From contig NZ_AP023243.1 of the NCBI RefSeq assembly GCF_016756495.1, forward strand, positions 6,576,501 through 6,640,500: a DNA stretch of 64,000 nucleotides, written 5' to 3'. Below, piece by piece: positions 18,818 through 28,647 of the stretch. Each line of letters starts with the position of its first letter. Within the stretch, counting starts at the first letter, position 1. Position numbers and translations under genes: made by a program. The DNA is from Mesorhizobium sp. 113-3-3 (GTDB taxonomy: Bacteria > Pseudomonadota > Alphaproteobacteria > Rhizobiales > Rhizobiaceae). The notes under the pieces are model-generated. The model saw only the letters and a program-made list of their open reading frames with translations. It had not been told where the DNA came from and did no database searches.

Positions 18818-19027
18818 TCAGTCAGGTCGCACCAGATCGATGTGGCTGACACGGAGGGCTTGTGCCAGTTCATAAAGCGTGACGATGGTGGGGTTCCTTT
18901 TGCCCTTCTCCAGCCCGCTGATGTACTGCTGGCTGAAGCCGGAGATCTCGGCAAGCTGCTCCTGCGTCAAGCCGGCCTTCTCCCTGATCCTGCGTGCATT
19001 TCGTCCGACCAGCTTGCGCATATCCAT
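18818..19027 (-). CDS. Small XRE-family HTH regulator (1)
   Basis: A 69-residue protein that is almost only a lambda-repressor-type HTH: NARRIREKAGLTQEQLAEI, then SQQYISGLEKGKRNPTIVTL and a final ELAQALRVSHIDLVRPD. It is one of four intact small XRE genes between 18.8 and 21.6 kb, all on the minus strand. With no effector domain it probably acts as a simple repressor of itself and neighbouring genes. No good Shine-Dalgarno sequence precedes the ATG, so the start is less certain. Confidence 0.85.
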   Translation of the reverse strand: MDMRKLVGRNARRIREKAGLTQEQLAEISGFSQQYISGLEKGKRNPTIVTLYELAQALRVSHIDLVRPD

Positions 19028-19141
19028 GCGCGGAGGTCAGCCACATTGTCATCGATTTGCCCGAACCATCTGCCGCGGGGCAGCAAAATCCAGGGATGCG
19101 ATGTTGATGACGTTGGTCGCTCAAGCCAAGCACAGCACGAG

Positions 19142-19387
19142 CTATCGGTCACGCAAGCGACGCACATGTGCGAGAACCTCGCAAGGGTCGAATTCGAGCG
19201 CTTCCGCTACGTCGAGGAACTCAATGACGTCCATGCGACGTTCGCCGCCCTCATACTTGGCCACGAAAGACTGCGGGCGGCGAAGCGCTTCGGCAACCTT
19301 GGCCTGGGTTAAGCCCTTGTTCTTGCGCGCCGCTATCAGCTGTTCCAGCAGCCGACCTTGGCGGGGCGATCGAAGGGATTTCGGCAT
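19142..19387 (-). CDS. Small XRE-family HTH regulator (2)
   Basis: An 81-residue HTH protein: LLEQLIAARKNKGLTQAKVA and then RRPQSFVAKYEGGERRMDVI, ending FLDVAEALEFDPCEVLAHVRR. The open frame extends further upstream, but that part is out-of-frame reading of the next XRE gene, so I start at the Met at 19387 (MPKSLRSPRQG). A decayed copy of this gene lies at 10748-10858, 8.3 kb away. It is 17 bp downstream of the next XRE gene, so the two are probably co-transcribed. Confidence 0.85.
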   Translation of the reverse strand: MPKSLRSPRQGRLLEQLIAARKNKGLTQAKVAEALRRPQSFVAKYEGGERRMDVIEFLDVAEALEFDPCEVLAHVRRLRDR

Positions 19388-19403
19388 CAGACGGTGCTTA
19401 AGC

Positions 19404-19619
19404 CTATTCAGATCGCGGATCGAGCAGCGTTGCCGGCTCAACCTCCAGCACCGTAGCGAGCTTCTCGACCATGTCGATGGTAGCAGCATATACACTGCGC
19501 TCAAGAGCGCTGATATAGGTTCGATCAACACCAGCTTCATGTGCCAGCGCCTCCTGCGACAGCTTCTTTTTCTCGCGAAGCCTACGCAGATTGCGGGCAA
19601 AGACCTCTCGGATTCCCAT
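19404..19619 (-). CDS. Small XRE-family HTH regulator (3)
   Basis: A 71-residue HTH protein: FARNLRRLREKKKLSQEALA and VDRTYISALERSVYAATIDM, ending EKLATVLEVEPATLLDP. It is the closest in wording to the qseC-like gene on the other side of the IS701 element (RNLRRLR...LSQEALA...DRTYIS against INMRRLR...LTQEELA...MRYVGS). A perfect 10-bp palindrome GAGTATACTC (19658-19667) lies 40 bp upstream and could be its operator. Confidence 0.85.
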   Translation of the reverse strand: MGIREVFARNLRRLREKKKLSQEALAHEAGVDRTYISALERSVYAATIDMVEKLATVLEVEPATLLDPRSE

Positions 19620-19667: not shown

Positions 19668-19826
19668 TACAAACTTAAGGAGCAACTCGCACGAGCATCG
19701 ACTTTGCCCGAACTCCCTGCTGTTAGGGATCGCGACTTCCCGGATGCGATCTGACGATGGTTATCGCTCAAGGTCAGCGCTGTAGGCCACGCAAGCTGCG
19801 CCAGGGAGCGAAGCCGACTGGTCTAG

Positions 19827-21317
19827 TACTACTGTGTCATAAAACTATGTTGGCAGCATGGACATCGTGGCAGACGCCGCGCCAAGGCGTGGGCGAGTCT
19901 AACCCTGACGGTGGCGATTGAATTGCTGACGTGGCGTTCGGGACGGAGCGGCGGCGCCGCGGGGTCGATAATCTTCGGGTAGCGCAGGTGCCTTGAGGAG
20001 CGGCGCTGAGCGTGGGGCTGAGGGGGGAATCAGACTCCGTTCGGAGACTAGGAATCCGTAAGCGGCGATCGCGAGCGTGGCGTGGTGATGGAAGCCGCGC
20101 CAACCTCGGCCCTCATAATGGCCAAGGCCGATCTCCTGCTTGAGTTCCTGATAATCCCGTTCGATCCGCCATCTCAGCTTGGCCTGGTCGACGAGGCCGG
20201 CGAGTTCGGTATCTTCCGGCAAGGTCGAGAGCCAATACTTGGTCGGCTCGACCTCGCCCTGCGGCCACTCGATCAGGAACCATTCCTCAGCTCGTGGCGC
20301 GGAGCGCCAGTAGTCGCGATGGGCTGGGCGGACGCGGACGGCGGCAAAGCGCGAGGCGAGCGGCGCCTTGGAGCCCTCGCGCCAGGTGACGCGGCACCAG
20401 GCGCCCTCGGGCAGCGCTTGCGCCAGGTCCTTGGCCGAAACGGGCGCGTGGTCGGCCTGGCGTCGGACGAGCGAAGGTGGGCGGCCGCGGCCGCTCCATG
20501 GCTTGGGCGGCAGCGGTTGCGTGTCCGGCGGCCACAGACGGATCGAGGACTGGACACCGACGACATAGGTCAAGCCCATCTCCGTCAGCCCGGTGCGCAA
20601 GGAGCTGTCGTTGCCATAACCGGCATCGGCCAGCACCACGCCCGGCGAGACGCCGGCCGCCAGCGCCGCCCGGATCTGCGCGAGTGCGATTTCGGGCTTG
20701 GTGCGGAAGATGACATCCTCCGGCACACCTGCCTTGGCGCGCCGGTCAGGGTCGTTGGCCCAGCCTTCCGGCAGATAGAGCTGATAGGCGACCGGCAGGC
20801 TCGCCTGTTCGGTGGCAACCGACAGACTGACCGCGACCTGGCAGTTGTCCTGCTTGCCGATCTGGCCGCAGTACTGCCGCGCCACACCCACCGAATGCTT
20901 GCCTTTCTTGGGAAAGCCGGTGTCGTCGACGATCCAGGCGCGGATCGGCCCCTGACCCTCAAGTGCCGGCAGAACCTGCGCCCGCACGACGCCAAGCACG
21001 GCATCATCCGACCAGTCCGCTTTCGCCACGAAGTGATGCAGAGACTGGTGCGCCGCCTGAACACGCCCAGGCTCCACCCGTGCCGCCATCGGCTCGACGC
21101 TCTTGCGCTCGCCTGGCAAAAGCAGCCCGGTGCAATAGGCCTTCAGCGGCGCCACCCGGTCAGCATGACCCAATGCCGAGGCGAGCGTCTCGACATAGGC
21201 CGCAAAACGCGATTCACTCGTTTCGATTCCGTCTCGGAGATTCATCGCTCCCTCCATTTGAAGCTTGAATCGCCATTCTCGCAATCAATCGTTAACGAAG
21301 TTTATGACACAGTAGTA
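19827..21317. mobile_element. IS701-family insertion sequence, apparently complete, with CTAG target duplication
   Basis: The ends are perfect 17-bp inverted repeats, TACTACTGTGTCATAAA (19827-19843) and its complement (21301-21317). They are flanked on both sides by CTAG (19823-19826 and 21318-21321), the 4-bp target duplication expected for IS701 elements (YTAR). One transposase gene fills the element. It separates XRE genes 1-3 from the qseC-like gene. Intact ends, duplication and frame indicate a recent insertion. Confidence 0.92.
19899..21245 (-). CDS. IS701-family DDE transposase
   Basis: A protein of about 448 residues (start 21245 after GGAGGG). Landmarks are YCTGLLLPGERKSVEPMAARV near the N terminus, AWIVDDTGFPKKGKHSVGVA with the first catalytic Asp, VVLADAGYGNDSSLRTGL with the second Asp, and WRIERDYQELKQEIGLGHYEG with the catalytic Glu. 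This is the full DDE set of the family. A 557-codon open frame on the opposite strand is a by-product of the GC-rich codon usage. The element carries no other gene. Confidence 0.95.
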   Translation of the reverse strand: MNLRDGIETSESRFAAYVETLASALGHADRVAPLKAYCTGLLLPGERKSVEPMAARVEPGRVQAAHQSLHHFVAKADWSDDAVLGVVRAQVLPALEGQGPIRAWIVDDTGFPKKGKHSVGVARQYCGQIGKQDNCQVAVSLSVATEQASLPVAYQLYLPEGWANDPDRRAKAGVPEDVIFRTKPEIALAQIRAALAAGVSPGVVLADAGYGNDSSLRTGLTEMGLTYVVGVQSSIRLWPPDTQPLPPKPWSGRGRPPSLVRRQADHAPVSAKDLAQALPEGAWCRVTWREGSKAPLASRFAAVRVRPAHRDYWRSAPRAEEWFLIEWPQGEVEPTKYWLSTLPEDTELAGLVDQAKLRWRIERDYQELKQEIGLGHYEGRGWRGFHHHATLAIAAYGFLVSERSLIPPSAPRSAPLLKAPALPEDYRPRGAAAPSRTPRQQFNRHRQG

Positions 21318-21416
21318 CTAGACCCATGTCGAAGAAAGCGGGCTCAGTTCACTGGCGGCCGGTTGCGCGCCATCAAAATCGATTTCGGCAATCCGGGATG
21401 GGCCAGATCGCCTTTG

Positions 21417-21626
21417 TTACTGCGGCCTAATCAACTCACAAGGATCAACGTCAAGTGCTTTTGCGAGCCGGCCAAGCACACTGACGCTGGCGGAAACCCG
21501 AGCACGCTCGATCGAACCCACATAGCGCATGCTCAGCTCTGCGCGGGCAGCCAATTCTTCCTGCGTCAGGTCCTGATCATGGCGCAAACGACGCATGTTG
21601 ATCGCCATGACCTCCTTGAGGTCCAT
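21417..21626 (-). CDS. qseC: Small XRE-family HTH regulator, QseC-like
   Basis: A 69-residue HTH protein: INMRRLRHDQDLTQEELAAR and MRYVGSIERARVSASVSVLG, ending LAKALDVDPCELIRPQ. It is divergent from the DUF2285 gene at 21710, with 83 bp between the two starts holding two operator-like palindromes. In the M. loti symbiosis island, QseC (a small XRE protein) and QseM (a DUF2285 protein) form exactly such a divergent pair: QseC represses qseM and sets whether quorum sensing is active. The assignment rests on this arrangement and on the adjacent traI/traR/fseA genes. The start is uncertain: an in-frame ATG six codons later follows AAGGAGG but too closely. Confidence 0.7.
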   Translation of the reverse strand: MDLKEVMAINMRRLRHDQDLTQEELAARAELSMRYVGSIERARVSASVSVLGRLAKALDVDPCELIRPQ

Positions 21627-21642
21627 GGCGAGATAGGGACCA

Positions 21643-21678
21643 GAACCGGAACTATGGTTCTAGGAACGATCGTTCCTA
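21643..21678. promoter_or_regulatory. Two operator-like palindromes between the qseC-like and qseM-like genes
   Basis: TAGGAACGATCGTTCCTA (21661-21678) is a perfect 18-bp palindrome. Directly beside it GAACCGGAACTATGGTTC (21643-21660) has GAACC/GGTTC arms. Both contain GGAAC-N4-GTTC(C/T), at 21648-21661 and 21663-21676, 15 bp apart. Paired sites of this kind in a divergent promoter region are what a QseC-type switch with two operators needs. Confidence 0.7.
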
Positions 21679-21709
21679 TTCGCTATGGTGAGCCAACCGA
21701 GGAGCAGCC

Positions 21710-22003
21710 GTGCCCGATCACAACAAACCCCAAACCGGCAAGAGGGTCGCGATGAAACGCAAAGTCCAAGACGAAGTCCCGTGGTCGGACAGCCTGACCG
21801 CTTACGACAATGAGCACTTCACGATCTATATGAGGCTCCTGGACGCGTCCGCCGACGATGCCAGCGAAGACGAGATGGCGCAGCTCGTCCTCGGCATCGA
21901 TCCGATGCGAGAACCTGAGCGCGCCCGAATGGCGGTTCGCAGCCATCTCGATCGGGCCAACTGGATGGTTACGACTGGATACAAAGAACTGTTCGCGCGC
22001 TGA
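21710..22003 (+). CDS. qseM: DUF2285-domain protein, QseM-like antiactivator
   Basis: A 97-residue protein starting at GTG 21710, which follows GAGGAG at 6 nt. AYDNEHFTIYMRLLDA, ASEDEMAQLVLGID and RSHLDRANWMVTTGYKELF are DUF2285 wording. The same pattern appears in the C-terminal part of the fseA-like gene 30 bp downstream on the other strand (ASHRQIARALLG, then RRGHMLMDRGYQDFL), so the two proteins share a domain. In ICEMlSym, QseM binds TraR and FseA and blocks both. A short Lys-rich leader precedes the domain. It is convergent with fseA. The family name is recalled, the internal similarity is visible. Confidence 0.75.
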   Translation: MPDHNKPQTGKRVAMKRKVQDEVPWSDSLTAYDNEHFTIYMRLLDASADDASEDEMAQLVLGIDPMREPERARMAVRSHLDRANWMVTTGYKELFAR

Positions 22004-22032
22004 CCGGCTCCAGATGAGCTATTGCAATCACC

Positions 22033-22834
22033 TTAGACGAGGAAATCCTGATAGCCACGATCCATGAGCATGTGACCGCGCCGGACAGCACGGCGAATGC
22101 GATCGCGAAGGTGATTGCGCGGATCCGTCCAGTCGGCCTGGACGCGTTGCCGGCCCAACAGGGCCCTTGCGATTTGACGGTGCGATGCACCGCCTAGCGA
22201 GCCGTCAAGCGCCTGGAGGACAAAGCGCAGACGACTGGCGCGCGCTTCGGGGGGAAACAGCCTGTCGGGAAGTTGTCCGGTCGCGTGAAGAGCATTGAGG
22301 CATTCGAGCGCATTCAACTGCTGCCTCATCCGATCGGCGGGCCAGATCGCGTCGACGCAAAGCCGAACGGGGCACAAAACGTCCGCGCCCTCCACAACCA
22401 GTTGTAAATCCCGGTGAGCATTTCGCAGCATGACATGCTGGCGACCGTCCGCCGTGATCACGAGTGCCGCCCGACATGGCAATGCAGCGAGATCAAACGA
22501 AAGCGTTTCGGGCGACAATGTTTTTTCCGCAATGACCGGCAGGACGTGCGGGCATTGGCGGGAGCACCAGAACACATTCGCATCAGGCCTCAACGAGCTT
22601 GCGAAACAGGAGCCCCCACCGCGTCAGATCGAGCGACGATCTCACCACTTCTATGTCGAAGCACCTTTCTGCAATTTCTGCCTGCTCAAGCGCGTGCCTC
22701 AAGTCACGCTGGAAGGCCGGATTGCGCCGCAGGAATTCCCAGGCCCAGCCGCGTCGGGTCAGGTAGCGCGTGTAGCGATAGGACTTCTCATCCTGCCAGT
22801 CAGGCCAGTCGGCGCCGTTACCTATCATAACCAT
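22033..22834 (-). CDS. fseA: FseA-like activator encoded in two frames (putative +1 programmed frameshift)
   Basis: Frame 1 starts at ATG 22834, one base after the traI stop, and gives 83 residues with DWPDW and RRGWAWEFLRRNPAF (the N-terminal domain found with DUF2285), ending WGLLFRKLVEA at a TGA (22585-22583). The +1 frame overlaps this stop and runs to 22033: DANVFWCSRQ, then RLRFVLQALDGSLGGASHRQ and DRGYQDFLV, a DUF2285 domain. Slipping one base at GCC-TGA joins them into about 266 residues, the length of uninterrupted relatives. In ICEMlSym, msi172 and msi171 are joined by a +1 ribosomal frameshift to make FseA, which activates excision, and they follow traI1 just as here. A sequencing error or a genuine mutation is the alternative. 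Confidence 0.78.
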
Positions 22835-22835
22835 G

Positions 22836-23468
22836 TCAGGCGGCCGTGCAGAGCACCGGCGCCCACAGCACGGGACCGCCAAGACCGCCATTGTGGCGGA
22901 CCGTAGCAAGGCTCTCCTCTGAGACATCCAAAAAGCCGGCAACGGCGCGCGTGGTGCCGATTGTCTGGGGCGGCCCGATGCGGGCCAGCGGCCATCCGGC
23001 GCGACGCAGGATTCGCTCCATGCGCAAATCCGTAACCGTAACGATATGCGTGAGCCGCCGCGACAAACCGAACTCGATCATGCCGGCGAAGAGTTCATAG
23101 GTGGCAACAGCAATGCTCCCACTGCCCTTCGGTGCAGACGGTGGGAGATCAAGGGCGAAACGGCTGCTTTCCCAGACACTCGGTCCCTCGGGTGCCGTTC
23201 CCCCTTCCAACAGCCTCGAAAAGACATCTCGCAACATCGTCGGCCCCGTTGAGGGCAGAAGGCGTACGCCGCCCCCGACACGACCGCCGGCATCGCGCAA
23301 CACAAGATAGTGCGGTTTCAGGGAATCGAATGAGTCGATCTCGAAGCCGCCGGTCGTGCGCACGTTCCAGTCGAGCCGCTCCTTGAAGACGCGGTAGCGC
23401 AGGCGGTGCATTTCGTGAAGTTCGTCGGCAAAGGCGCCGTACCAGCCGGGCGCAATAAGCTCAATCAT
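22836..23468 (-). CDS. traI: Acyl-homoserine-lactone synthase
   Basis: A 210-residue LuxI-family enzyme that makes an N-acyl-homoserine lactone from SAM and acyl-ACP. The invariant residues fall at the usual positions: R24, F28 and W34 (RYRVFKERLDW), D45 and D48 (FEIDSFDS), R69, E100 and R103 (WESSRF). I start at 23468, where the ATG follows GAGGAG; sixteen more codons are open upstream. A tra-box-like palindrome lies 60 bp upstream, so TraR should activate it, giving positive feedback. The fseA-like gene begins one base after its stop, so both are in one operon. The acyl chain length cannot be read from the sequence. Confidence 0.95.
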   Translation of the reverse strand: MIELIAPGWYGAFADELHEMHRLRYRVFKERLDWNVRTTGGFEIDSFDSLKPHYLVLRDAGGRVGGGVRLLPSTGPTMLRDVFSRLLEGGTAPEGPSVWESSRFALDLPPSAPKGSGSIAVATYELFAGMIEFGLSRRLTHIVTVTDLRMERILRRAGWPLARIGPPQTIGTTRAVAGFLDVSEESLATVRHNGGLGGPVLWAPVLCTAA

Positions 23469-23526
23469 GATGGTCTCCTCGCAGGTATGACCCTGCCATT
23501 GGAGGCGAACCTTCATGCCGCGACTG

Positions 23527-23544
23527 CCTGTGCATTTGCACAGG
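23527..23544. promoter_or_regulatory. tra box (TraR binding site) of the traI-fseA operon
   Basis: CCTGTGCATTTGCACAGG is an 18-bp palindrome with only the central pair mismatched, close in size and wording to Agrobacterium tra boxes (which have GTGCAGATCTGCAC cores). It lies in the 100-bp gap between traR's end and traI's start. Confidence 0.85.
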
Positions 23545-23568
23545 TAGATTAAAGAGGGATTCTGTTCC

Positions 23569-24294
23569 TCAGAGAATTGATGATCGTGAGGAGGCCAGCA
23601 GCGTCACCGCCTGATTTTTGGTGCGCACGCCGAGCTTCTTCTTGGCATTGTCCAGATGGAAAGCGGCCGTGCGCTCCTTGATCCCCAAGATACAGCCGAT
23701 CTCCCAGGCGGATTTGCCCTTCGCCGTCCATTCCAGGCATTCGTACTCACGGGGCGTCAGCGAAACACCATCCACGGCCAGACCACCCGAAAGCTTGCGG
23801 CGAACGCCAATGTGAAAGCACATCGCCATAATCTCGAGCGCCTGCTCATATTGCTCGGCGATGCGCAGGAAGGTCGGATCGAGCCTGTCTGCCGCGAAGG
23901 TCATCGCAGCGACACCGCCGCGGCGATCGACAAGTGGTATCGTCAGTCCGCAGCAGATGCCGAATTCGGCAGCCTCATCGAAAAGTTGTTGCTGTCGCGT
24001 TGAAATGCCGGCATGGCCGAAACCCGGCCCCCACTGAAAGGGACATTCGCTGCATCTTGCCCATTCTATGACCGGGTCGATCCTTTCATATTGGTGGCGC
24101 AAGTAGTGCGACGTCCAGCCGGAATGATAGTTCGATATCAGCCTGGGTTTTGTGACGCGATCAGACACCAGAGACAGATAGGCGAATGCGGGAATGTCGA
24201 AGGCGCCGGCGGCGCTGGCCAGTGCGTTATGGAAGTCGACTTCATCAACGCTCAAAGACAACTGTTCCAGCAAAGTTTCGAAGACGAGCTGCAT
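23569..24294 (-). CDS. traR: LuxR-family quorum-sensing activator TraR
   Basis: A 241-residue protein with an autoinducer-binding domain (about residues 15-165) and a GerE-type HTH (about 175-240). The ligand pocket residues of TraR are present: W60, Y64 (SGWTSHYL), D73 (RIDPV) and W88 (FQW). The HTH reads LTPREYECLEWTAKGKSAWE, then HLDNAKKKLGVRTKNQAV. The ATG follows GCAGGAGAAA. With the lactone made by TraI it should bind the tra box and switch on traI and fseA. The QseM-like protein is the likely inhibitor. Same orientation as traI, 100 bp upstream. Confidence 0.95.
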   Translation of the reverse strand: MQLVFETLLEQLSLSVDEVDFHNALASAAGAFDIPAFAYLSLVSDRVTKPRLISNYHSGWTSHYLRHQYERIDPVIEWARCSECPFQWGPGFGHAGISTRQQQLFDEAAEFGICCGLTIPLVDRRGGVAAMTFAADRLDPTFLRIAEQYEQALEIMAMCFHIGVRRKLSGGLAVDGVSLTPREYECLEWTAKGKSAWEIGCILGIKERTAAFHLDNAKKKLGVRTKNQAVTLLASSRSSIL

Positions 24295-24967
24295 TTTCTC
24301 CTGCGGCTGTTTTCAATTAGACATGGGACTTTCTGGCTTCTTGGCAGCTACGGCGAGAAGACTCGCCCCCAAGATATTCGACGCTGGAGAAAATTCACCG
24401 CGGTGACTACTCCCCGGACCTTTGATCATATGAAAGCAGGTGGATGCGACCTCGACGCCGGCTGCCGCAAGCCGCGGGTCCGAAGCTGCGATTGTGGGTG
24501 GTTTCCCTGGTGTCGTAGAAATATCGAAGCTCGATGTGCCATCCGGATATGCAGATGACCTCCTTCTCGAACTATCGATTGCGGACGCGCTACAATCACC
24601 CAGATCCAATGAGGCACCGAGATCCAGCGGGTCAAAAAAGGCGCCCTGCCGGCGGGGAGGGACACCGGCAGGGCGCGCCGCACAAACACCCTGATCGTTG
24701 GGCAACAGGACAGCGGCGGCAGAACTGATTTGGTTATCGCTTGAGATCGAAGTTGTCCGAAGCATGCTTAGAATCTGACGGCTTCAAGTTTAGCGGTTTA
24801 GGTCGGCTCGGCGCGAAATGCGCCGTCAACCCCTCGTCACCAAAGGGCGACCAGTCCTAACGCCAGCCTGACGTCAAAGCGTTTGGTCCGTGGGAAGTTC
24901 CTACCAGGGACCACTTTACCCGGGACGGCGTCGAACCCGGGGCTCGCTTCCGTCGGCACTCGCATGT
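24295..24967. other. Intergenic, about 670 bp, contains a terminator; no gene supported
   Basis: Open frames exist on both strands, the longest (24313-24765, minus) of 150 codons, but it runs through the strong hairpin at 24641-24676 and shows no domain. A GGGTTCGA that looks like a tRNA T-loop near 24930 has no matching tRNA arms. The traR promoter should lie just right of 24294. Confidence 0.6.
24634..24676 (-). terminator. Rho-independent terminator on the minus strand
   Basis: A perfect 12-bp stem, GCGCCCTGCCGG (24641-24652) with CCGGCAGGGCGC (24665-24676), loop of 12 nt, followed on the minus strand by six T (24634-24639). It would stop transcription coming from the catabolic block before traR, isolating the quorum-sensing genes. 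Confidence 0.8.
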
Positions 24968-27102: not shown

Positions 27103-28647
27103 TCAAACGCCGATGTTGCGTGCGATGCTGTCCGCAGCCATGCGCTTGCGCCATTCAAGAGGCCCGGAATTGTGAATGGAGTTTCCCTCAACATCGACAG
27201 CCATGATGACAGGCATATCCTGCACTTCGAATTCATAGACTGCTTCCATGCCCAGGTCTTCGAAGGCAATGAGCCGTGCTGACTTGATTGATTTTGATAT
27301 CAGGTAGGCAGCCCCACCCACTGCGATGAGGTACGGCGTTTTGTGTCTTACAATCGACTCGATGGCAGCCCGTCCTCTCTCCGCTTTGCCTACCATCGCG
27401 AAAAGCCCGGTTTCGGCGAGCACCTTGTCCGTAAAATCGTCCAAGCGGCTGGAGGTTGTTGGGCCAGCCGGTCCGACGACCTCCTCTCTCACGGCGCGGA
27501 CGGGTCCAACGTAATAAATCACGCGTCCTTGCAGATCGAACGGAAGCGGCTTGCCGGCGTCGATCAACTCGACCATTCGCTTGTGGGCGGCGTCACGGCC
27601 CGTCAGCATCTTTCCGGACAAAAGGAGCGTTTCTCCGCAGCGCCATGATGCCGTCTCTTCCTTGGTCAACGCATCGAGGTTGACTCTTCGTACGCCGGCT
27701 GGACTCAATTCGTCGGTTCCGATATTGGGCCATTCGCGCAAGTCGGGCGGCTGAAGCCTGATAGGTCCAGAGCCGTCCAAGGTGAACTTCAGGTGCCGGT
27801 TGGCGGCGCATTGCGGAATGAGCGCCACGGGCTTGGACGCCGCATGGGTAGGATAAGTCGCAACCTTGACGTCAACGACTGTCGTCAGGCCGCCTAGGCC
27901 CTGAGCGCCTATGCCGAGGGCATTAATTCGTTCATAAAGCTCGACCCGGAGTGCTTCCTCCGCACTTGATGGCCCCCTGGCGATCAATTCCGCCATATCG
28001 ATGGGCTGGTTCATGGCCTCCTTGGCCAGCAGCATCGCCTTTTCAGCGCTACCACCGATGCCAACGGAGATCAGTCCGGGCGGACACCACCCACTGCCAA
28101 GCGTCGAGACAGTGTCAATCACCCAGTCGGAAACGGAGGCGCTGGGGTTCAAGGTGGTAAAACGTGCTTTGTTCTCTGAGCCGCCGCCTTTTGCGGCAAT
28201 GGTGATCTCAATCTGGTTACCTTGCACAAGGTCAACGTGGACGACCGCCGGCGTGTTATCACGGGTGTTGACCCGTCCGGCGAGCGGATCGGCAACGATC
28301 GATGCCCGAAGGGGATTGTCAGGGTCGAGATATGCCTGACGGACGCCCTCATTCACGAGGTCTGCGAAACTGACCGTTGATCTGATGCGGGCGTCCATTC
28401 CAACCTTCGCGAAGACCACCACAAGGCCGGTGTCTTGGCAGATCGGCCGCCGCCCAAATGCCGCCATGCGGGAGTTCAGCAGAATCTGCCCGATGGCATT
28501 CTTCGCCGCTGGACTCTGTTCGCGCGTGTATGCGTGAGAAAGAGACCGGATATAATCTGGAGGGTGATAGTATGAGATATACTGAAGAGCGTCGGCGACG
28601 CTCCTTGTGATGTCCTTGCCAGCGATGGTCCGTGTGCTATTTCCCAC
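27103..28647 (-). CDS. Class I fumarate hydratase (probable mesaconase)
   Basis: A 514-residue iron-sulfur fumarase with the alpha and beta parts fused, as in E. coli FumA. The cluster cysteines are C70 (RRPICQDTG), C188 (GSGWCPPG) and C280 (IPQCAANR), with spacings close to FumA. The C-terminal beta domain has GPTTSSRLDDFTDKVLAETG and AVGGAAYL. Class I fumarases are known to hydrate mesaconate to citramalate as well as fumarate to malate. Because a methylaspartate ammonia-lyase, which produces mesaconate, lies in the same minus-strand block, I favour mesaconase as the role. It starts 6 bp after the aldehyde dehydrogenase stop, so the two are co-transcribed. Confidence 0.9.
   Translation of the reverse strand: MGNSTRTIAGKDITRSVADALQYISYYHPPDYIRSLSHAYTREQSPAAKNAIGQILLNSRMAAFGRRPICQDTGLVVVFAKVGMDARIRSTVSFADLVNEGVRQAYLDPDNPLRASIVADPLAGRVNTRDNTPAVVHVDLVQGNQIEITIAAKGGGSENKARFTTLNPSASVSDWVIDTVSTLGSGWCPPGLISVGIGGSAEKAMLLAKEAMNQPIDMAELIARGPSSAEEALRVELYERINALGIGAQGLGGLTTVVDVKVATYPTHAASKPVALIPQCAANRHLKFTLDGSGPIRLQPPDLREWPNIGTDELSPAGVRRVNLDALTKEETASWRCGETLLLSGKMLTGRDAAHKRMVELIDAGKPLPFDLQGRVIYYVGPVRAVREEVVGPAGPTTSSRLDDFTDKVLAETGLFAMVGKAERGRAAIESIVRHKTPYLIAVGGAAYLISKSIKSARLIAFEDLGMEAVYEFEVQDMPVIMAVDVEGNSIHNSGPLEWRKRMAADSIARNIGV

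Follow-up and report, generated by a model that had tools for sequence, protein, structure and literature searches.

A probable ICEMlSymR7A-type quorum-sensing and antiactivation locus in the chromosome of Mesorhizobium sp. 113-3-3

Results

The locus and its closest relatives

A 64,000-nt stretch of the Mesorhizobium sp. 113-3-3 genome (hereafter the window; C1:6576501-6640500, in a 7.73-Mb genome of three contigs) carries traR2, traI2, msi172, msi171, qseM and qseC within 2.9 kb (Table 1). This locus is very probably the quorum-sensing and antiactivation block of a ~533-kb symbiosis island of the ICEMlSymR7A type, inserted at the tRNA-Phe gene of a Mesorhizobium-type chromosome. Its anatomy and homology are read from sequence, and the regulatory steps that we assign to it follow, by analogy, published work on R7A and WSM1271. 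The system is already known and well studied; the window holds another island carrying an R7A-type switch.

Our reference for R7A is the locus of CJ3Sym (L010), which carries the R7A locus because CJ3Sym received ICEMlSymR7A by laboratory mating, as described in PMC4572658. Across the block, the window proteins are 87–100% identical to this copy, and the DNA is 94.8% identical over 5,083 bases that run from the locus into the next genes. The two share gene order, the tra box, the GCC-TGA site, the layout of the qseC-qseM gap, rdfS with its FseA box, a TraI1 encoded elsewhere, and integration at tRNA-Phe. The present island differs in its FseA halves (87–92% identical), one operator base, and its integrase (93%); past qseC it also has an insertion sequence and a 430-bp stretch holding an additional XRE gene. 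The initial annotation had proposed the control centre of a mobile element related to ICEMlSym; these identities, together with the rest of the element on the same replicon, bear this out.

Three further systems resemble the window. The island of Mesorhizobium sp. STM 4661 (L014, L085, L145, L172) has 100% identical traI1, rdfS, and integrase, shares the additional XRE gene, and retains the target site of the insertion sequence in its empty form, but its qseM is 86% identical and it has GCG-CGA where the window has GCC-TGA. Plasmid MesoLj131c2 (NZ_AP023255.1) of Mesorhizobium sp. 131-3-5 has the same gene order and 94.1% DNA identity over 99% of positions 21300-24400; it differs in being a 655-kb plasmid with a decayed traI2 (73%) and a traR match split into two frames. 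The MesoLj131c2 switch (L055, NZ_AP023255.1:320576-363639) comes from a Lotus isolate. ICEMcSym1271 has a TraR, FseA, QseM, and RdfS cascade and differs, by its description in passages of PMC5882170, in having two traR genes, a decayed traI2, and a tripartite element. The order TraR, then FseA, then RdfS is repeated in a passage of PMC11963761.

Table 1. Features of the locus, its surroundings and the island. Positions are those of the window unless prefixed C1.
Feature	Position	Strand	Remarks
traR2, LuxR-type receptor of acyl-homoserine lactone (AHL), 241 aa	23569..24294	-	Pfam; 98% to R7A island copy
tra box CCTGTGCATTTGCACAGG	23527-23544		centre 67.5 bp upstream of traI2 ATG 23468
traI2, LuxI-type AHL synthase homologue, 210 aa	22836..23468	-	intact; 90-91% to R7A island copy
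msi172, DUF6499 half of FseA	22583..22834	-	AWEFLRRN motif; 87% to R7A island copy
predicted +1 frameshift site GCC-TGA at the msi172/msi171 junction	22583..22588	-
msi171, DUF2285 half of FseA	22033..22590	-	92% to R7A island copy
qseM, antiactivator, 83 aa from ATG 21752	21752..22003	+	100% identical to R7A island copy
paired candidate operators GGAACTATGGTTCT and AGGAACGATCGTTCCT between qseC and qseM	21648..21677
qseC, XRE regulator, 69 aa	21417..21626	-	HTH_3 2.8e-12; 97% to R7A island copy
insertion sequence, inverted ends CTAGTACTACTGTGTCATAAA, CTAG target repeat	19823..21321	-	transposase 19899-21284
qseC-like XRE gene	19413..19619 (match extent)	-	37.7% to QseC over 69 residues, tblastn
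XRE-family gene, 81 aa	19142..19387	-	also beside qseC in plasmid MesoLj131c2
qseC-like XRE gene	18824..19027 (match extent)	-	35% to QseC over 68 residues, tblastn
traI1 orthologue	C1:6425995-6426639		99-100% identical to TraI1 of 7 relatives; ~173 kb from the window locus
tRNA-Phe	C1:6381546-6381621
integrase adjoining tRNA-Phe	C1:6381819-6383144	+
attachment (att) repeat, 18 bp	C1:6381605-6381622 and 6915057-6915074

Integration site and backbone of the island

As in an ICEMlSymR7A-type element, tRNA-Phe is adjoined by an integrase gene and att repeats. The repeat consists of the final 17 bases of tRNA-Phe plus one, and has a single other exact copy in the 843 kb searched. The att copies at tRNA-Phe and at 6915057 therefore give an island of ~533 kb.

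The backbone is also of the R7A type. rlxS, msi107, traF, rdfS, and a DUF736 gene cluster on one locus (L036), and the backbone finds, which include traF, SLT, relaxase, and DUF736 genes, are all on the same chromosome. Eight frames were scanned near the trbE match: five are of the TrbI, CagX, VirB8, TrbL, and TrbE types, two encode radical-SAM and SIS/GATase proteins, and one is without family. The rdfS-traF-msi107-rlxS backbone is thus accompanied by five genes of a trb-type IV secretion region. The relaxase gene is so named because of DUF3363 and its position. The initial annotation had looked to the replicon for rdfS, an integrase, traF, and a tRNA att site; since all of these, as well as the relaxase and trb genes, are on this chromosome, its proposal does not fail for want of excision or transfer genes. 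Among nodulation genes the search covered nodA, which is present (C1:6565749-6566330, 5.1e-95). A pair of incomplete nodA-like stretches, one of them containing stop codons, lies at C1:6550727-6552628, ~13 kb from the intact nodA.

TraR2, TraI2 and the tra box

The LuxR protein matches Autoind_bind (3.7e-28) and GerE (2.6e-16) in Pfam and, among solved structures, LasR and TraR (1h0m, 5.8e-24). Alignment with LasR shows it to have conserved NY, W, HY, DP, and W positions, which we take to be the ligand residues of TraR-type receptors. The tra box is the sole site with at most three mismatches across the 843 kb scanned, and the R7A island has an identical one. Both the receptor with TraR ligand residues and the tra box upstream of traI had been recognized in the initial annotation.

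The LuxI protein noted there is likewise present (Autoind_synth, 8.6e-51), but its assignment to TraI1 has to be corrected: judged from gene order and similarity, it is a traI2 homologue. In R7A, according to passages of PMC5882170, traR lies upstream of traI2-msi172-msi171 and qseM-qseC, traI1 is elsewhere, and tra boxes precede traI2 by 67 bp and traI1 by 69 bp. The window gene lies directly upstream of msi172, its tra-box centre is 67.5 bp from ATG 23468, and its product shares 66% identity with a separate TraI1, one of four LuxI matches in the genome. Because traI1 is encoded elsewhere, the 2.9-kb locus is not, as had been suggested, a complete switch by itself. The more likely traI2 start is ATG 23468 rather than 23516, since the tra-box centre then lies 67.5 bp upstream, close to the published spacing for R7A traI2, and since 23516 would lie upstream of the transcript start expected from WSM1271, where the transcript is described as beginning 44 bp below the tra-box centre (PMC5882170). 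The tra box of the traI1 promoter has, by eye, six mismatches to that of traI2. We considered whether it is peculiar to this genome and rejected this, as the 140 bases upstream of traI1 equal those of the R7A copy except for one base.

The locus could instead be a self-sufficient quorum-sensing unit: the TraI encoded there would be an active synthase making AHL for the local TraR, and TraI1 would not be needed. TraI2 is full length and matches the solved LasI at 3e-33. Of the 115 columns that do not vary across outgroups and TraI1, it departs at just five, each common to another copy; this is the fewest of eight copies, with seven in R7A TraI2 and 9–28 in the six others (the same count for traR2 is 14–20 across eight copies and 15 in the window). 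Older constraint was strong, the ratio of nonsynonymous to synonymous substitution rates (dN/dS) of traI2 being 0.15–0.16 against M. alhagi and Nitratireductor. A self-sufficient unit is nonetheless unlikely. In R7A, as far as passages of PMC5882170 report, mutation of traI2 left excision unaffected and no AHL product of TraI2 was identified. Moreover, against five gap-free relatives (L010, L012, L014, L024, L025), dN/dS is 0.28–0.44 for traI2, 0.08–0.16 for traR2, and 0–0.16 for traI1 of the same genomes. Four close relatives with traI2 frame breaks or gaps (L009, L011, L013, L015) were kept out of this range; they give 0.35–0.67 over the aligning part.

Against the R7A copy alone, dN/dS is 0.34 for traI2, 0.08 for traR2, 0.08 for traI1, 0.20 for msi171, 0.41 for msi172, 0.10 for qseC, and 0 for qseM (0 nonsynonymous and 5 synonymous changes). 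On the window branch, traI2 has 6 synonymous and 7 nonsynonymous private changes, and three of the seven nonsynonymous ones are at sites that do not vary among outgroups (such sites make up 139 of the 210 columns; P 0.18, not significant). The idea that selection has kept traI2 in the window was thus not borne out by the branch test, despite the fewest deviations. By these comparisons traI2 is intact and recently relaxed, in line with published pseudogenization: in symbiosis islands traR, traI, qseM, and qseC are described as often lost or rearranged, and traI2 as decaying (passages of PMC8627217).

FseA is split between two frames

Pfam places DUF2285 (PF10074, DUF2285/RovC; 1e-19) in Msi171 and PF20109 (6.2e-12) in Msi172, whose plasmid counterpart is annotated DUF6499; Msi172 of the window has the AWEFLRRN motif that is named in PMC10359603. 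Msi171 also gives a weak match (0.00036) to the solved RovC 6xz5. The initial annotation described a two-domain DUF2285 activator that starts one base after traI. The start holds, a single base separating the traI2 stop from the msi172 ATG, but the activator lies in two frames that would need a ribosomal frameshift. msi172 terminates GTT GAG GCC TGA, and msi171 runs on in the +1 frame, the two frames overlapping. Judged from the sequence, FseA could form only through +1 frameshifting at GCC-TGA. This agrees with the FseA of PMC10359603, which is described there as two frames joined via a conserved +1 site, in ~61% of 4,709 homologues.

msi171 relatives were found at 22 named loci, 20 in Mesorhizobium and one each in Aminobacter and Nitratireductor. 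The junction was compared at 21 loci (20 relatives and the window), with L026, L029, and L030 excluded as only partial msi171 matches. The +1 offset is present in 18 of the 21: nine have GCC-TGA, including the window and R7A, five a different stop (L016, L017, L018, L019, L022), three a CGA codon at the slip position (L014:1698, L020:2473, L024:10001), and one, L021, neither a stop nor CGA. L023, L027, and L028 have no offset between msi172 and msi171.

A likely FseA target lies on the same island. The FseA box is described in PMC10359603 as two inverted hexamers 16 bp apart; the hexamer letters GGCGAA/TTCGCC were assigned in the present analysis. A predicted box, GGCGAA-N16-TTCGCC, is found 66 bp before rdfS both here and in R7A, with the same 28 bases in each, and the RdfS protein is 100% identical to that of R7A. 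In the 843 kb, the N16 spacing gives three sites, as does a spacing of 13, and the other 21 spacings give 0–1; in 15 relatives the motif occurs 3–9 times per genome and its reversed control 0–5 times. Among the matches listed, the rdfS-type box sequence alone recurs widely. A second GGCGAA-N16-TTCGCC in the island, at C1:6479157, was rejected as an FseA target on these counts and because it sits inside coding frames.

QseM, QseC and their control region

The small DUF2285 protein of the initial annotation is confirmed as QseM: it has a lone DUF2285 domain (PF10074, 1.2e-06) without DUF6499, its gene lies beside qseC, and it matches the solved QseM 7uqt at 4.8e-52. A longer qseM frame opens at GTG 21710. 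ATG 21752 is the more likely start because the 7uqt alignment begins at residue 15 of the longer frame and the plasmid copy is annotated as 83 aa. The divergent small XRE gene with paired operator-like repeats also stands as proposed. The repeats in the qseC-qseM gap are presumably QseC operators, as their symmetry and position suggest.

Predicted operation of the switch

By analogy with R7A and WSM1271, AHL made mainly by TraI1 would bind TraR, and TraR on the tra box would drive transcription of traI2-msi172-msi171. At low frequency, a +1 slip at GCC-TGA would fuse Msi172 and Msi171 into FseA, which on its GGCGAA-N16-TTCGCC box would switch on rdfS, traF, msi107, and rlxS; with these targets on, the integrase would excise the island. 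In most cells TraR and FseA would be blocked by QseM, and QseC at the paired operators would decide whether QseM is made.

The window presents the R7A transfer switch intact in another symbiosis island and leaves the picture of the system unchanged. It offers a natural allele set for probing the tuning of transfer frequency: an identical QseM, a diverged FseA, one operator change, and an intact but relaxed traI2. It is doubtful that TraI2 still makes AHL, which would give two working synthases and, with the altered qseC-side operator, shift the fraction of cells in the donor state.

Caveats and alternative readings

Several points temper the assignment to the R7A type. Operator base 21656 is G in the window and C in all 12 aligned relatives; both this change and the insertion sequence past qseC may affect how qseC/qseM is set. 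Constraint on traI2 is relaxed. The relaxase gene matches the Pfam Relaxase family at 0.0057, below the cut-off. Identity of the integrase is 93% to its CJ3Sym counterpart and 98–100% to those of four other strains, and a close integrase was not found in three of the eight genomes searched. No contradiction of the R7A-type island was found.

It is very unlikely that the island is a dead remnant that has lost transfer. Insertion sequences are multiplying in it: three further copies of the element beyond qseC are 100% identical over ~1.5 kb, so that this element spread recently, and one more is 89% identical. At C1:6392951 there is a broken integrase-like copy, and one conserved base of the operators has changed. 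Against these signs of decay, both att ends are present, and open frames are retained by the five trb genes that were examined and by the relaxase, traF, integrase, and rdfS genes, the last of which also has its box. A Ti-plasmid-type traR/traI pair that lies by chance beside DUF2285 genes would account for the match to the solved TraR, but is contradicted by synteny and can be dismissed, as operon order, tra-box spacing, frameshift site, and neighbours fit the R7A island.

Region beyond qseC and other elements

The insertion sequence beyond qseC was considered as a break in qseC and rejected, since its end lies 95 bp beyond the stop codon of qseC; its empty site, GGTCTAGACCC, is seen in STM 4661 (L014). 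Past it lie three XRE genes. That at 19413..19619 is inside a 430-bp stretch that has a 97% identical counterpart in STM 4661 and is missing from the R7A locus. Additional qseC variants have been described previously (passages of PMC8627217).

Directly past the right att site, in C1:6915057-6958880 (L074-L076), a second integrase gene at 6915916 has an open frame of 429 aa, and a third att-like copy, which lacks one base, lies ~44 kb beyond that site. Apparently, a second element sits in tandem at the same tRNA-Phe, past the right att site of the island. The 278-kb contig C3 carries genes for a TraF-type peptidase and for a LuxI of its own, the latter next to a LuxR-like gene, as well as a trbE-type gene and two DUF2285 genes (1469-1936, 19050-19574, 27357-27677, 242892-243158, 267156-267467), and is probably a separate conjugative plasmid.

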